A stretch of 64,000 nt of DNA from Capnocytophaga granulosa ATCC 51502 (GTDB lineage: Bacteria; Bacteroidota; Bacteroidia; Flavobacteriales; Flavobacteriaceae). The translations under genes were made by a program, and so were the position numbers. Under the pieces are notes generated by a model. The model was not told the DNA's origin and made no database searches. It saw only the letters and a program-made list of their open reading frames with translations. Where the stretch lies: NCBI RefSeq assembly GCF_000411115.1, contig NZ_KE150242.1, positions 157,791 to 221,790 of the forward strand, read 5' to 3'. Positions 1-47,903 of the stretch are shown piece by piece (position 1 is the stretch's first letter; the number at the start of each line of letters is the position of its first letter).

Positions 1-90
1 TCATTGTTGGCATTAATCATTAATCATTATGGCATTAATCATTAATCATTGTTGGCATTAATCATTAATCATTGTTGGCATTAATCATTA
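1..90. repeat. Four tandem 22-23 bp AT-rich units
   Basis: Four back-to-back copies of a 22-23 bp unit (starts near 1, 24, 46 and 69) made of ATTAATC heptamers separated by TTGTTGGC or TATGGC. The last copy runs directly into the ATG of the terminase gene at 90. The array may extend upstream of the window. The same heptamer (TTAATGA/TCATTAA) recurs at 5236-5262, 37053-37107 and 56350-56460. Confidence 0.9.
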
Positions 91-1958
91 TGGAAGAGGC
101 TTTAGAAATTCTTTGGACATACGCTCGTCGTGAGCCTTTGGATAGCAATGGAGAGACTATAGTCCCTACCATCAACAATAGTATTGCCGCCATTCGTATC
201 ATTATGCGCTTGGAAGGATGGGCTATGGAAAGTGAAAAGAGAAAAGTTAATAGTGAAAAGCGGGCAACACATGATTTGCCAGCGTCTAAAAGTAGGGGCG
301 AATGGCAATTCGCCCAACCCCAATATGCTCAATCGCAATTCGCCCAATCGCAAAATACCCAACACAATACGAATAATAACACGAACAATCATAATGGGAG
401 CGAATTATCAAATAAGGGCGAATTGCCCAACATGGGCGAATTGCTCACATACTCCGCTCTCGCGGACTTTGCCCCTACACCTGCTCAACACCAATATCCC
501 CAACCCAATACAGCTTCCACTGCTGGCGCGAGCTTGCAGCTCGTGCCCCAAGAAAACCTCCTATCCTTCACCCGCCATACACTCCCTTCTTTTGCCCCCG
601 CCCCTTTCCACATTGCCTATTACGAGGTGCTGACACGCTTTGCCTTGGGAGAAATCAAAAAGCTGATGATCACCATGCCGCCCCAACACGGCAAGAGCGA
701 AGGTGCTACTCGTCGCCTACCTGCTTTTGTCTTAGGGCAAGATCCTGACAAACGTATTGCTATTGTTTCCTACAATGCTATCAAAGCGCGTAAGTTCAAC
801 CGCGAACTCCAACGTATCATGGACGATGACCGCTACTATGAGCTGTTTCCTCAAACGCTCCTTGCGGGTCAGGCAAGCTACCAAGAACAAGGCCGACGTA
901 GTCGCAACTATGCCCGCAACTCCGATGAGTGCGAAATTGTAGGCTACCAAGGCAGCTTTAAGACGATTGGTGTAGGAGGTTCCCTAACTGGCGAACCTGT
1001 GGATATGCTGATTATGGACGACTTATACAAAGATGCATCGTCGGCTTGGTCGCCTGTCATCAGACAGAACGTGGCCGACTGGTACGATACAGTAGCCTCC
1101 ACACGTTTGCACAATGATAGTCAACAGCTGTTGGTCTTTACCCGCTGGCATATGGAAGATTTAGCAGGACGCTTGCTCGAACAAGAGGGCATATATGACC
1201 CCATAGAAAACCCGCAAGGTTGGCTATTGGTGAGCTTCCCCGCTATACAGAACAGGCCGCCAAGCGAGCAAGACCCTAGAGCAGAAGGCGAACCCCTATG
1301 GCCTGAACGACATAGCTTGGAAAAACTCTTAGAGATAAAAGGTCGCTCCCCAACTGTCTTTGAGAGTTTGTACCAACAGAATCCACAGCCTTCCCAAGGG
1401 TTGATGTACGAGGAATTTACTTGTTATACCGACTTGCCTTCTCGTTCCTACTCAGTAGCGTATATTGACGCGGCTGATAGTGGGGCGGATTACCTATGTG
1501 CTTTATTTTATAAGGAAGCCGAAGACGGCAACTATATTACAGATGTGCTCTACACCAAAGACCCTATGGAGGTCACGGAAACCACGCTGACCTATATGCT
1601 CCAACAACACCAAGTAGAGCGCTGCCATATTGAGAGTAACAACGGCGGCAACCTCTTTGTCAGCAACCTCCAGCAACGCTCATGGGACACAGGCAACCGA
1701 CTGACGCGCTTCAATCCGTTTCACCAGAATCAGAACAAAACAGCAAGGATTTTTGCCGCTTCCGCCTCAGTGCAAAAGCTGATTAAGATGCCTCTGGATT
1801 GGAAAAAGCGCTTCCCCAAGTTTGCCCGCGACCTGACGGGTTACCTCCGCGTGGGCACCAATGCCCATGACGACGCCCCCGATGCGCTCACTGGCTCCAT
1901 AGAGTGTCGCCAGCCCCCGAAGAGAGTCAGCGTTGCGGAGATGTTTGGACTTAGATAG
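90..1958 (+). CDS. Phage-type terminase large subunit-like protein
   Basis: The C-terminal two thirds look like a phage terminase large subunit, the DNA-packaging motor that couples an ATPase to a nuclease. A Walker A-like PPQHGKSE lies near residue 198 and a Walker B-like DMLIMDD near 305. An RNase H-like nuclease shows as YIDAADSGAD near 455, an HIESNNGG segment, and a final HDDAPDALTG. I chose the ATG at 90; an in-frame TTG at 72 lies inside a tandem repeat. Residues 1-45 form a separate helical segment. About residues 50-150 are low complexity (FAQ/SQ, NTN and GEL repeats) encoded by palindromes that also occur between genes. No other phage gene (portal, capsid, small subunit) is visible downstream, so it is either the end of a prophage lying upstream or a solitary relic. 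Fold call firm, function in packaging inferred. Confidence 0.85.
   Translation: MEEALEILWTYARREPLDSNGETIVPTINNSIAAIRIIMRLEGWAMESEKRKVNSEKRATHDLPASKSRGEWQFAQPQYAQSQFAQSQNTQHNTNNNTNNHNGSELSNKGELPNMGELLTYSALADFAPTPAQHQYPQPNTASTAGASLQLVPQENLLSFTRHTLPSFAPAPFHIAYYEVLTRFALGEIKKLMITMPPQHGKSEGATRRLPAFVLGQDPDKRIAIVSYNAIKARKFNRELQRIMDDDRYYELFPQTLLAGQASYQEQGRRSRNYARNSDECEIVGYQGSFKTIGVGGSLTGEPVDMLIMDDLYKDASSAWSPVIRQNVADWYDTVASTRLHNDSQQLLVFTRWHMEDLAGRLLEQEGIYDPIENPQGWLLVSFPAIQNRPPSEQDPRAEGEPLWPERHSLEKLLEIKGRSPTVFESLYQQNPQPSQGLMYEEFTCYTDLPSRSYSVAYIDAADSGADYLCALFYKEAEDGNYITDVLYTKDPMEVTETTLTYMLQQHQVERCHIESNNGGNLFVSNLQQRSWDTGNRLTRFNPFHQNQNKTARIFAASASVQKLIKMPLDWKKRFPKFARDLTGYLRVGTNAHDDAPDALTGSIECRQPPKRVSVAEMFGLR
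295..315. repeat. REP-like palindrome inside the terminase ORF
   Basis: Arms GGGGCGAAT and ATTCGCCC around a GGCA loop. The same palindrome (arms GGGGCGAAT/ATTCGCCCC, loop GACA) lies between genes at 53216-53247. Further half copies of the GGGCGAATTGCCC type follow at 334-347 and 414-446 in the same reading frame. Confidence 0.8.
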
Positions 1959-4243: not shown

Positions 4244-4276
4244 AAAAGTAGGGATAAAGGAAATTATTCCTACTTT
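4244..4276. terminator. Hairpin with flanking A and T runs
   Basis: AAAAAGTAGG pairs with CCTACTTTTT around a loop of about 14 nt. It has the form of a bidirectional intrinsic terminator, placed just upstream of the FabK-like gene. Confidence 0.55.
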
Positions 4277-4305
4277 TTTACACTCTAACATTTAACAATT
4301 AACAA

Positions 4306-5259
4306 TTGAAAACAAGAATAACAACTTTATTAGGTATAGAACATCCTATCATTCAAGGGGGTATGATATGGGCGAGCCAATGGCAGTTAGTAACAGCCGT
4401 AAGTAACGCAGGCGGATTGGGGCTGCTAGGTTCTGGCTCTATGTCAGCCGAGGAGTTACGTACTCAAATCAGGCAGTGTAAAGCACATACTAGCAAACCT
4501 TTTGGGGTAAATGTGCCTATTATGTACGCCAATAGTGCCCAAACCATGGAGGTCATTATGGACGAAGGCGTCTCTGTAGTTTTTACTTCGGCAGGGAATC
4601 CAGCCCTTTGGACAGATAAGCTCCATGAGAAAGGAATGAAAGTGGTACATGTAGTAAGTAGTAGTAAGTTTGCGCTCAAAGCTCAAGCAGCAGGAGTAGA
4701 TGCCGTAGTAGCCGAAGGCTTTGAAGCTGGCGGACATAACGGACGAGAGGAGACCACCACTTTGGTATTAGTGCCTGAGGTATGTCGGAAAGTAACCATT
4801 CCTGTGATTGCAGCTGGAGGAATTGCCACAGGTAGCGCTATGTATGCTACTATGGCGCTCGGTGCCCAAGGGGTGCAAATGGGTAGCCGCTTTATTGCCA
4901 CAGAGGAGGCCTCTGTACATTCCCTTTTCAAACAAGAGGTACTCAAAGCCAAGGAGGGTGACACGGTATTAACTCTTAAGGAACTCTCTCCCGTACGTCT
5001 GCTAAAGAATCCTTTCTACGAGCAGGTAGAAGCTCTTTATCAGCAAAGAGAAGCCACCCCTGAGAATCTCAAACAGCTATTAGGTAAGGGACGAACCAAA
5101 TTAGGTATGTATGACGGAGACCTTAAAGAAGGCGAATTAGAAATAGGCCAAGTAAGCAGCCTGATAGAGGAGGTAAAAACCGTCAAAGAGGTCTTCGAGG
5201 AAGTATTAGCAGAGTTTCAACAAACCAGAAACTTAATGATTAATGCCACTAATGATTAA
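4306..5259 (+). CDS. FabK / nitronate monooxygenase family flavoprotein
   Basis: A FMN-binding TIM-barrel protein of 317 aa. The N-terminal LGIEHPIIQGGM, a catalytic-type His in GGHNG near residue 145, AAGGIATG near 180 and GAQGVQMGSRF near 190 are shared by FabK enoyl-ACP reductases and class I nitronate monooxygenases. The sequence alone does not separate the two activities. The conserved N-terminus begins at a TTG codon (4306) that is itself part of an AACAATT repeat; the next in-frame ATG (4363) would delete the conserved flavin-site start, so TTG is preferred. It converges with comEC on the other strand. Confidence 0.85.
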   Translation: MKTRITTLLGIEHPIIQGGMIWASQWQLVTAVSNAGGLGLLGSGSMSAEELRTQIRQCKAHTSKPFGVNVPIMYANSAQTMEVIMDEGVSVVFTSAGNPALWTDKLHEKGMKVVHVVSSSKFALKAQAAGVDAVVAEGFEAGGHNGREETTTLVLVPEVCRKVTIPVIAAGGIATGSAMYATMALGAQGVQMGSRFIATEEASVHSLFKQEVLKAKEGDTVLTLKELSPVRLLKNPFYEQVEALYQQREATPENLKQLLGKGRTKLGMYDGDLKEGELEIGQVSSLIEEVKTVKEVFEEVLAEFQQTRNLMINATND

Positions 5260-45251: not shown

Positions 45252-47576
45252 TTATTTAAAAAATAATTCACTCACCTTTCCTTGTCCTGCCCACTGCATA
45301 TCATAGACCTCGTCGGCAAGGGTAGGGTCATTTTCTATTTGTAGCCCTTGGGCTTCGGCTTTGAGCTTTAGTAGGTTTCCGATAGTGAATTTGCTGTTGA
45401 GTTTTTCTAAGAGAGCATTTACGCCACTTATAGAAAGCGCCTGGGCTACCTGTCCTTGGAAAGGGAGTTCCATCCAGATAATCTCTTTAGCCTCCACGTC
45501 CAACACCCCAAAGAGCAGTCCCTTCTGCAAGGGCTGGGTGATACGTACCTGATGAATCACCGCCGAAGGATCATAAGCTACTCCAGTGCGTTCGGATACT
45601 TTCATCTTATACTTACTATCCATCCATCCTACCACTAAGTTAGGCGACAAAGCACCACAAGAATACGCATTGCAGACAAAGGTTACATATTTGGCCTTGT
45701 GCTGGCGTAGAGTATTGACATCAATATTGATATATTCGGCCGTACCTACCTTGTCAGGGATACTGCGAATATCTCCGCTGTGCTGGCACCCTAAGGTGGT
45801 AAGTCGCCCAAAATAGCAAATATCTGACCTATCCTGATAGATGATGCGGCAGGACAAGTCCATATCGAGATGCTGAGCAGGCAGGTCTTTCCCCCATTGC
45901 ATAAAAAGGCGTATCTCATTACCCTCTAATGGGAAACGAGTACCCATAAGGGTCGCATTGAAGTCATGTACATTATGGCTTCTATCACCTATAGGTAGCG
46001 GTATATGGTAGAGTTGTGGGTCTATATAAATAAAATGATGTTCGTTTTCCTCCTTAGCGAACTGATGCTGTATTGTCCATAAGCAAAGGTCTTCTATCTT
46101 AGCCTTCATCTCAGCCAATTGCTCCTCATTATAGCTTTCGACAACCAAGGGATGCTTAGGAATCTCCACTCGTGTTCCCATGATGGTCTGTACGCTGCGT
46201 TTGCCCTCTTTGCTAAAGTACAAATCGGCATACGTATTTAGGGTAAAGAGTAGGCGAGTAGGCACTTGGTCTATGATTTCCTTGAAGGTAGAAAGCGTGT
46301 CGTCGGCTCCCAGCCAAAGCATACAAGCAAAGAGAGAGCGGGCAAAGACCCCAGGGCGCTGTTTAAGCAGGAAAAAAGCCTTTTCGCTATCCATATTCTG
46401 GTAAGCAGCATTAAGTTCGGCTTGCCATACACTATAACGCTCGTTATAGAATACGTCCAAAAGGGTAGCGAGCTTTTCAAAGCCCTTCTTCTTGCTGTAT
46501 TCTGCCAAGCGCAAGGCACGGATAAAGCGCACCCACATCTCACGCTTGGGGTGCATGATCTCACATGCCTTTTCCGCTGAAAGAGGTAAGGCATTGAGCC
46601 AATGCGCTACTCTGGCACATTCCTGGCGGGAGTACTTGAGCTTGAGTTCTTTTTGTGCTCTTTCTTTGACAGTCATACTCAGGTCTAAGGATCTGACGAT
46701 ATGATAGTTGTTCTTAGCGTCCTTCTTCATGATGGTCTTAGGTTCTACAATTTGTAAAAAACCTGTTCTTTTATACCACAAATAGCGCAATATATCGGTA
46801 GGAGAGCTAAAGCAAGCTCCAGCTTCGGCTTCCTTATCCTGAGCAATATAGCTATCTACTACCAAGACGAGCGTCTCCTTCATACCAATACGAGTCTCAG
46901 GAGCCACTGAGAAATAAGGTAACAGCAGCTTAAGCGAATCGGACTGAGTAGCATCCAAAGCAGTTTTGGAGCTTAGTAGGTTTTGGAAAAAGGTATTGGC
47001 CTCTGCCTCACGCCATAGATCAAGGATTTTGAGTTTGCTACCCTGTCCTTGATATTCTATTTCACCCAATTCAAAAGGGGTTCCACAGAAAGGACAACCA
47101 TTGTAGCGATCCAGCGGAAAAGTACCATAAGGAATATAGTGTCCGCAGGCTGAAAAGCGTTCATGCTTAGGGGTAAAAGGCTCCTTATGATTTTCTTTCT
47201 TATAGCTCTCTTCATATAGATAGTCAAAGTAATCATCAGACTTTATCAAATGAGGATATTGGTTATAAAAAGCGGTGATAAGATGGTCAATGAACCCTTC
47301 CCCTGTAGGCACTTCCCAATTCTTGATAAGGGGTGTCCAGTTGAGTTTTACATGAAGTACCTCTTTTATTATCTTGACAACAGACTGGCGATACTCGTTT
47401 GTCGTACCATTGATAGCATGCAAAAGGTCTTCGGTAAGGCCAAAACCATGCTTTCGCAAGGCAGCTACCAATTCCAAGGTACCTGGTTGTATAGCCTTTT
47501 GAGAAGGCATCGTATCAGGGACGAATAAAGCGTTTTGCCTAAGGGCAACTTTCAGTAGGGCAGTTATCTTTTCCAT
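45252..47576 (-). CDS. RING-like and TerD-like large protein (MXAN_6230/SCO0854 type)
   Basis: 774 aa from the ATG at 47576 (a GTG 11 codons upstream overlaps the terminator that precedes the gene). A RING-like Cys/His cluster SACGHYIPYGTF…GCPFCGTPF lies near 142-170. The long middle is helical, and the C-terminal ~230 residues resemble TerD-type beta sandwiches (IRLFMQWGKDLPAQHLDMDLSCRIIY, AEYINIDVNTLRQ, YVTFVCNAYSCG). This matches the MXAN_6230/SCO0854 RING-domain family linked to ter stress gene clusters. No other ter gene is close. Family name from memory, moderate confidence; function unknown. Confidence 0.65.
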   Translation of the reverse strand: MEKITALLKVALRQNALFVPDTMPSQKAIQPGTLELVAALRKHGFGLTEDLLHAINGTTNEYRQSVVKIIKEVLHVKLNWTPLIKNWEVPTGEGFIDHLITAFYNQYPHLIKSDDYFDYLYEESYKKENHKEPFTPKHERFSACGHYIPYGTFPLDRYNGCPFCGTPFELGEIEYQGQGSKLKILDLWREAEANTFFQNLLSSKTALDATQSDSLKLLLPYFSVAPETRIGMKETLVLVVDSYIAQDKEAEAGACFSSPTDILRYLWYKRTGFLQIVEPKTIMKKDAKNNYHIVRSLDLSMTVKERAQKELKLKYSRQECARVAHWLNALPLSAEKACEIMHPKREMWVRFIRALRLAEYSKKKGFEKLATLLDVFYNERYSVWQAELNAAYQNMDSEKAFFLLKQRPGVFARSLFACMLWLGADDTLSTFKEIIDQVPTRLLFTLNTYADLYFSKEGKRSVQTIMGTRVEIPKHPLVVESYNEEQLAEMKAKIEDLCLWTIQHQFAKEENEHHFIYIDPQLYHIPLPIGDRSHNVHDFNATLMGTRFPLEGNEIRLFMQWGKDLPAQHLDMDLSCRIIYQDRSDICYFGRLTTLGCQHSGDIRSIPDKVGTAEYINIDVNTLRQHKAKYVTFVCNAYSCGALSPNLVVGWMDSKYKMKVSERTGVAYDPSAVIHQVRITQPLQKGLLFGVLDVEAKEIIWMELPFQGQVAQALSISGVNALLEKLNSKFTIGNLLKLKAEAQGLQIENDPTLADEVYDMQWAGQGKVSELFFK

Positions 47577-47587
47577 AGCATTATACA

Positions 47588-47660
47588 ATAAAAAAAGAAA
47601 GGTAATCACAGAAGTAAATCTTAACCTAAAAGAGAGAAGTAACTTCTGTTTGACCTTTCT
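47588..47660 (-). terminator. Terminator-like hairpin after the tRNA
   Basis: On the minus strand AAAGGT…ACAGAAGT pairs with ACTTCTGT…ACCTTT and is followed by CTTTTTTT. It ends 12 nt before the RING-like gene's ATG. The plus strand contains CAGAAGTAAAT (47609-47619), an 11-mer also present in the tRNA insertion (47718-47728). Confidence 0.6.
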
Positions 47661-47673
47661 TAGTTGTTTTTTG

Positions 47674-47796
47674 TAGGACAGACGGGACTCGAACCCGCAA
47701 CCAGGGAGTTAGAAGCTCAGAAGTAAATAGTAATTGACCTCCTCAAGGAGAATAATCTTACTATTGACCTGCTCTACCCAATTGAGCTACTGTCCT
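47674..47796 (-). tRNA. tRNA-Arg(UCU) interrupted by a 49-nt insertion
   Basis: Read on the minus strand. The acceptor stem is AGGACAG/CTGTCCT with discriminator A. D arm GCTC-AATTGGGTA-GAGC, variable TGGTT and T arm GCGGG-TTCGAGT-CCCGT follow the tRNA rules. The anticodon stem is complete only if nt 30-78 (plus-strand 47719-47767) are skipped: GG joins GAG to give GGGAG-CTTCTAA-CTCCC with anticodon TCT. The mature form would be 74 nt. The insertion lies in the 5' strand of the anticodon stem and folds on itself (AATAGTAA/TTACTATT, CTCC/GGAG). No CCA is encoded, as usual in this phylum. It could be a spliced gene, a tRNA tolerating a bulged hairpin, or a pseudogene. Confidence 0.85.
47719..47767 (-). 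other. 49-nt insertion in the anticodon stem of tRNA-Arg
   Basis: AT-rich, with an 8-bp stem AATAGTAA/TTACTATT enclosing a CTCC-TTGA-GGAG hairpin. The 8-mer AGGTCAAT occurs at its 5' junction (plus-strand 47763-47770) and again 30 bp further in (47733-47740). It is far shorter than a group I intron and has no recognisable intron core. Confidence 0.75.
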
Positions 47797-47903
47797 AATG
47801 TTAATCTCTCTTTCTGGGTGCAAAATTATAACCCTACTGCGCAATGTTTTTGCGTAGTTGTAGAAAAAGAGAAAGATTAACAAAAATATAACATTATTGT
47901 AAT

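Follow-up and report, generated by a model that had tools for sequence, protein, structure and literature searches.

Why is a tRNA-Arg(UCU) gene of Capnocytophaga granulosa ATCC 51502 split by 49 nucleotides (nt) within its anticodon stem? The locus lies at 47796-47674 on the minus strand of a 64,000-nt stretch of contig NZ_KE150242.1 (the window), and an earlier note had offered a new short intron type, a functional tRNA carrying a bulged hairpin or a freshly broken gene as possible answers. We consider it probable that the locus encodes a Y-RNA-like tRNA mimic that works with a Ro60-like protein in RNA repair. The basis of this answer is a conserved fold, a motif that the insert shares with a hairpin trailing the tRNA, the circular permutation that relates the two, a recurrent neighbor protein, RNA-repair genes in 5 of 10 neighborhoods of its gene and the layout of a true TROVE locus. 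Among the earlier options the tRNA carrying a hairpin came closest; the intron is not supported, and the fresh break is refuted. The insert-bearing tRNA fold had already been recognized; the hairpin 3' of it, the Ro60-like gene and the RNA-repair context had not.

At the window locus, a tRNA fold with all its parts is interrupted by an insert of exactly 49 nt. The Rfam tRNA model was matched in whole around a long insertion (43.6 bits over 47796-47674, minus strand), and default ARAGORN called no tRNA at these positions. Deleting in script the 49 nt that follow G28 (47719..47767, minus strand) left a 74-mer that ARAGORN calls tRNA-Arg(tct), in agreement with the earlier claim that this deletion restores the tRNA. 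All pairs of the acceptor (7/7), D (4/4) and T (5/5) stems are standard, although the word perfect, once applied to every stem, was slightly generous because one T-stem pair is G-U. The anticodon-like arm of this 123-nt RNA reads GG and, beyond the insert, GAG CUUCUAA CUCCC, with the loop CUUCUAA (UCU) at 47709..47715; the continuous anticodon stem of an elongator tRNA-Arg(UCU) is interrupted after G28. No group I or II intron matched the locus in Rfam up to E 10, the insert being only 49 nt long, and tRNA introns of these groups were rejected for lack of a ribozyme-core match. A mobile repeat was rejected as well, since a 25-nt piece of the insert did not recur in the window when up to 3 mismatches were allowed and a search of the locus against 20 genomes gave no additional insert copy in G001 or G002 (G and L numbers are our handles for genomes and loci). 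Such RNAs show that tRNA finders overlook them or assign them doubtful anticodons and introns.

The insert is a circular permutation of the trailing hairpin. Its Y-like helix (47727..47764, minus strand) is formed by a 5' arm at 47764-47758 that pairs with 47733-47727, with GAUUAU (47757-47752) and GGUCAA (47739-47734) between the two arms, and is followed 3' by the strand UUACUUC (47720..47726), common to the trailing hairpin and to relatives. The hairpin (47597..47659, minus strand) reads GGUCAA-N7-UUACUUC...N7'-GAUUACC with an extended lower stem, precedes a U run (47596-47589) and has a fold z of -3.85. When the general hairpin pattern, GGUCAA-N7-UUACUUC-loop-N7'-(G/C/A)AUUACC, is set beside that of the insert, N7'-GAUUAU-loop-GGUCAA-N7-UUACUUC, the same elements appear opened at the other end. 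Relatives of the hairpin occur in 9 of 20 Capnocytophaga genomes (E<=3e-12). A perfect 7-nt downstream complement follows 20 of 40 motif copies, against 4.1 expected; this is a fairer test than pairing in 21 of the 30 listed hairpins, whose level is partly given by construction because they were preselected for at least 6/7 complementary bases. In 10 genomes outside the set from which the rule was found, 51 motif copies comprised 28 of hairpin type, 10 permuted and 13 of neither type; permuted copies were present in nine of these genomes, and the tenth had one with 5/7 pairs. A compensatory change in the L227 hairpin (GGA with AUUUCC replacing GGU with AUUACC) has a counterpart at the same pair of the L134 insert. 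Some array hairpins (L222 7204-7269, L220 11600-11670, L237 1626-1704) bear in their loops a lone hairpin resembling a T arm (GGTTCGA), as half-tRNA forms.

Is this architecture conserved? The same tRNA-like gene, with its insert at the identical place and the same synteny, is found in oral taxon 863 (L001) and C. gingivalis ATCC 33624 (L002), to which the window DapD is 95% and 94% identical, respectively; L003 is without it. An assembly error is very unlikely as the cause of the insert because independent assemblies carry it. In L002, the insert stem shows a compensatory change from AATAGTAA/TTACTATT to AATGGTAA/TTACCATT, and the T stem has also changed. The 8-bp stem noted earlier in the insert is real and covaries in relatives; the CTCC/GGAG hairpin reported with it is absent from L001 and L002 and is therefore not a conserved part. 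Related insert-bearing RNAs occur in other Bacteroidota, 10 additional genomes being found by covariance model. Among 11 tRNA-likes (window, L001, L002, L134, L174, L175, two in L176, L210, L212 and L213; L211 was left out because the long stem of its tRNA-like lacks the motif), 98.6% of 286 cells were paired, with two-sided changes at 18 of 26 pairs, and none of 500 shuffles matched any of five structure measures. For 22 sequences, in an alignment fitted to the covariance model, 98.3% of 572 cells were paired and two-sided changes affected 16 pairs. Both counts cover pairs other than the two anticodon-stem parts. The acceptor, D and T arms covary, as does the insert, whose 7 helix pairs all show two-sided changes in either set; together with the conservation, this covariation refutes the freshly broken gene.

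The anticodon-like arm has a different history. A full stem with a UUU or UCU loop is found in 15 of the 22 RNAs (L238:1501-1618 by eye), which form two sets of close relatives, 3 from Capnocytophaga and 12 others whose neighboring proteins are about 83-100% identical to that of G022. The arm is degenerate, absent or non-canonical for Lys/Arg in the remaining 7, so decoding is unlikely as a shared function, and the loop may matter where it is kept. By pattern, an ordinary tRNA-Arg(UCU) signature occurs in 18 of 20 Capnocytophaga genomes, a set standing apart from the window's own genome and including both insert-bearing nearest relatives, where the ordinary genes are full tRNAs of 74.3 bits.

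The linkage of this RNA to one protein gene (45252..47576, minus strand; 774 amino acids, aa) is likewise observed directly. Under our covariance model R1, the window tRNA-like scores 110.1 bits and members 92-115 bits; ordinary tRNAs reach 50.7 bits in one run and 60.5 in a run over 395 Flavobacteriales genomes. With nine candidates scored per genome and strict filters, that run gave 16 matches of at least 100 bits in 14 genomes, 10 of them new, and in 14 of 14 high-scoring loci the protein directly adjoins the RNA, with 2-7 motif copies each. At a loose E-value, 238 of the 395 genomes matched, many listed matches being ordinary 74-nt tRNAs (no more than 60.5 bits). None of 16 lower-scoring loci that we fetched had the protein or the motif; they were 3 ordinary tRNAs, 12 RNAs of a second class and 1 TROVE locus. 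Within the genus, the protein family was found in 11 of 20 genomes (in pieces in G010), and a pattern scan turned up 18 motif matches, of which 16 fall at the gene or within its array; the other 2 come from elsewhere, in genomes that lack the gene. Wherever a motif-bearing locus of the family was examined, the RNAs immediately precede the gene. In G015 the array and the gene are on separate contigs whose ends share about 55 nt, so the array is probably upstream there too. One exception to the linkage is G360, which has the protein without motif or RtcB and suggests that protein and RNA can be found apart; the protein family as a whole numbers 4130 hits. Copies of the protein 98% identical to that of the window carry the C. 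granulosa label. By title and abstract, no description of this RNA-protein pair was found among the top-ranked records of broad topic searches in the open-access literature.

Other observations were made at these loci. Where the protein gene is in pieces in G010 (L227 8260-10547), the hairpin is kept. The RNAs of the second class (L245, L246, L248-L256 and L260, about 1501-1622) are also tRNA-shaped but carry another insert and measure about 100-122 nt; they adjoin an uncharacterized protein of about 460 aa in 12 of 12 loci, and RtcB lies beside 11 of the 12. Upstream of the array in L210 (633-929), three tRNA genes stand in a row (Gln, Pro and Leu by ARAGORN), the middle one with just 37.4 bits in Rfam.

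What kind of protein accompanies the RNA? The 774-aa product contains a Prok-RING-like zinc motif (residues 142-165), a Ro60-like HEAT domain (a modelled core at about residues 181-535) and a TerD domain (about residues 551-718). The best structural alignments of the modelled HEAT-repeat core were with four Ro60/TROVE structures. At sequence level, similarity to TROVE/Ro60 was not detectable, PF05731 (TROVE) matched none of 18 family members at E<=10, and a sequence search of solved structures gave nothing useful.

The genomic company of the gene points to RNA repair. We inspected 10 neighborhoods, with Pfam run on selected open reading frames (ORFs). RtcB lies directly downstream of the locus in G144 and upstream in G469; G400 has two copies each of RtcB and RlaP nearby, together with an RF-1 domain protein resembling PrfH; Hen1, PNKP ligase and PNKP kinase/phosphatase are near the locus in G148, and a T4-type RNA ligase in G022. 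No RNA-repair gene was recognized among the selected ORFs of G282, G464, G007, G010 and G016. RtcB was present in 18 of 18 searched genomes with gene and motif, a count that stands apart from the 10 new genomes of the R1 scan, and in 5 of 9 Capnocytophaga genomes without the protein gene. G005, G006, G012 and G018, all Capnocytophaga, matched neither RtcB nor the Ro60-like gene. In G001 and G002, RtcB and the locus are on different contigs.

A true TROVE gene with the same arrangement strengthens the connection. The tRNA-like of L247 (1501-1632) scores 70 bits under R1 and lies beside a TROVE gene (31-1407, minus strand; PF05731, 42.6 bits) in the order seen in the window: palindrome, tRNA-like with insert, hairpin, protein gene. 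Its insert has a 7-bp helix and then UUACUUC, and its hairpin reads GGUGUGA-helix-UUACUUC. In a second TROVE locus, that of G459, the palindrome precedes the gene, and after the gene come several RNAs with a helix followed by UUACUUC or CUACUUC and YrlA-like permuted tRNA modules; two of them score 35.0 and 33.6 bits under the Rfam YrlA model, whose gathering score is 69. True TROVE genes are uncommon across the phylum (one among 395 genomes at E<=1e-20), and a TROVE match was found in none of 28 genomes searched. In the L247 neighborhood there are also Thg1 and a kinase-like protein. The array of YrlA-like RNAs that follows a TROVE gene and scores under the Rfam cut-off lies in L261 (reverse strand, about 4245-4480), from a Bacteroidota genome.

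Signals for expression can be proposed upstream. On the minus strand, the order runs from dapD through a palindrome and a promoter-like box to the tRNA fold, the hairpin with its U run and the 774-aa gene. The palindrome, CGCAAAAACATTGCG in minus-strand reading (47840..47854), is a probable operator: among loci with a tRNA-like, the pattern CGCA-N7-TGCG stands upstream of the first motif in 19 of 21, and among those lacking one in 1 of 8, with a background of 29 in 281,315 bp that partly includes the counted sites. The box TAATTTTG (47821..47828, minus strand) fits the Bacteroidota -7 box TAnnTTTG; a consensus scan for promoters and terminators returned none of either, with a consensus that does not cover Bacteroidota promoters. 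A WYL/WCX-type regulator is near the locus in 5 of the 10 neighborhoods (L219-L223; Pfam checked for three of the five), and our guess is that it binds the palindrome. With a U run behind it, the trailing hairpin probably doubles as a terminator or attenuator ahead of the protein gene. A 13-nt imperfect inverted repeat (47799-47811 and 47870-47882) flanks the promoter palindrome.

Could the 49 nt instead be spliced? In a short tRNA intron, a putative endonuclease would remove them and RtcB would ligate the halves, producing a second tRNA-Arg(UCU) here and tRNA-Lys(UUU) elsewhere. The canonical tRNA-Arg(tct) of the joined 74-mer, the UUU or UCU arms intact across the insert in 15 of 22 relatives and the presence of RtcB in all 18 searched genomes with gene and motif are compatible with such a scheme. 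However, the motif also occurs outside tRNAs, in stand-alone hairpins that need no splicing, and 7 of 22 flanks fail to rebuild a Lys or Arg arm, so the new short intron type is not supported; the ordinary UCU tRNAs of the genus and the absence of Rfam intron matches, from analyses with no search aimed at a tRNA endonuclease, add to the case against it. Since the insert is shared by two other species, has relatives elsewhere and holds a covarying helix, neither an intron nor a fresh break is likely; splicing is less likely than a retained helix, and we regard it as very improbable. A decaying tRNA pseudogene with a chance insertion would agree with the second, ordinary tRNA-Arg(UCU) in relatives, and the earlier note had proposed that such a gene in the same genome, combined with the absence of a mature 74-nt RNA from this locus, would make it a pseudogene. 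An intact UCU tRNA does exist in 18 of 20 Capnocytophaga genomes, but the pseudogene does not follow: covariation in all three arms and the insert, kept across genera, refutes it and leaves its probability negligible.

The kept loops and the neighbors Pnkp/Hen1, RtcB, RlaP and T4-type ligase in some genomes would also suit a decoy or fuse, in which a Lys-UUU or Arg-UCU loop baits stress anticodon nucleases and a repair particle senses or absorbs the attack. The loop is nevertheless lost or non-canonical in 7 RNAs, its 15 keepers reduce to the two sets of close relatives, and YrlA fragments were reportedly not detected in Salmonella; we consider the decoy unlikely. A bolder form would be a second, undescribed lineage of Ro-type particles (a Ro60-like ring plus TerD) with its own RNAs, into which a tRNA with a live Lys-UUU or Arg-UCU anticodon loop is wired as a fuse; stress anticodon nucleases would cut it, and the particle, with RtcB or Pnkp/Hen1, would sense and repair the damage. 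That proposal is speculative and quite unlikely. The RNAs might alternatively act only in cis, the tRNA-like and hairpin forming a leader through which the protein gene is attenuated. The U-run hairpin immediately before the start codon and the position of the RNAs directly upstream of the gene fit this, but an attenuator would need neither a full tRNA fold nor as many as 7 motif copies, and the G459 array lies downstream of its TROVE gene, making a purely cis-acting role improbable.

We therefore return to the Y-RNA-like tRNA mimic, for which protein binding and function are what we infer. The 49-nt segment would stay in the RNA as a protein-binding helix within the anticodon stem. By analogy with YrlA and Rsr, this helix may hold the Ro60-like protein, the tRNA body could engage tRNA enzymes, and the trailing hairpin would provide a second binding site of this kind. 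Such a system would amount to a second Ro-type ribonucleoprotein, of different protein architecture, in bacteria without a TROVE match. One presumed binding helix in two circular permutations, free and within a tRNA, constitutes a direct link between Y RNAs and tRNA, and compact systems (a 123-nt RNA, a 60-nt hairpin, one 750-aa protein and RtcB) offer a means of probing the role of Y RNAs in RNA repair.

How does the system compare with those already known? The MXAN_6230/SCO0854 RING family (NF041916) matches the window protein in part, at 114.3 bits over residues 153-721 of the 785-aa frame, far under the curated cut-off of 600, so that membership failed; no paper on MXAN_6230 was found in the open-access collection searched. 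Burroughs and Aravind reportedly described in 2016 a tRNA-like RNA in an RNA-repair operon, linked to SPFH/Band-7 modules; the likeness is that of a tRNA-like RNA near repair genes. Ro60 has a C-terminal vWA/MIDAS domain. Rsr/Ro60 proteins (TROVE, PF05731) resemble the window protein in its predicted HEAT core and through the related RNA of L247, which precedes a true TROVE gene in the same layout; the window protein differs from them in its RING-like motif and in the TerD domain that follows the HEAT core.

The closest kin known are, in our best reading, the Y RNAs. In YrlA, the basal stem tethers Rsr and the tRNA-like domain binds PNPase, according to PMC8394870, and PMC7790460 describes rsr, Y RNA and rtcBA in one operon in some bacteria, induced by tRNA fragments, its authors raising the possibility of nuclease inhibition by the tRNA-like domain. 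Against the Rfam YrlA family (RF02553), the window RNA scores 13.7 bits over 19 positions, with a gathering score of 69, and is not a member; none of nine related loci matched the family at E values of 1 or less. In Bacteroidota, some members may escape the Rfam model. The window RNA does have a tRNA-like module with D, T and acceptor arms, and the place of the anticodon stem is taken by what would be the Ro-binding stem, a role known for YrlA from PMC8394870. Both kinds of RNA are found with Ro-type proteins and RtcB, the window having a Ro60-like fold only and the related L247 a true TROVE gene. Window-type RNAs, unlike YrlA, often keep an anticodon loop and occur in arrays with simple hairpins. 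The ends of YrlA form the Ro-binding stem, whereas those of the window RNA form the acceptor stem and its presumed binding stem is internal. In the Rfam alignment, the Ro stem of YrlA encloses first the T arm and then the D arm; in the window RNA, the acceptor stem encloses the D arm, the presumed binding stem and the T arm, in that order. Because these orders are circular permutations of each other, the window RNA has the topology of a YrlA cut open at the acceptor end rather than at the Ro-binding stem.
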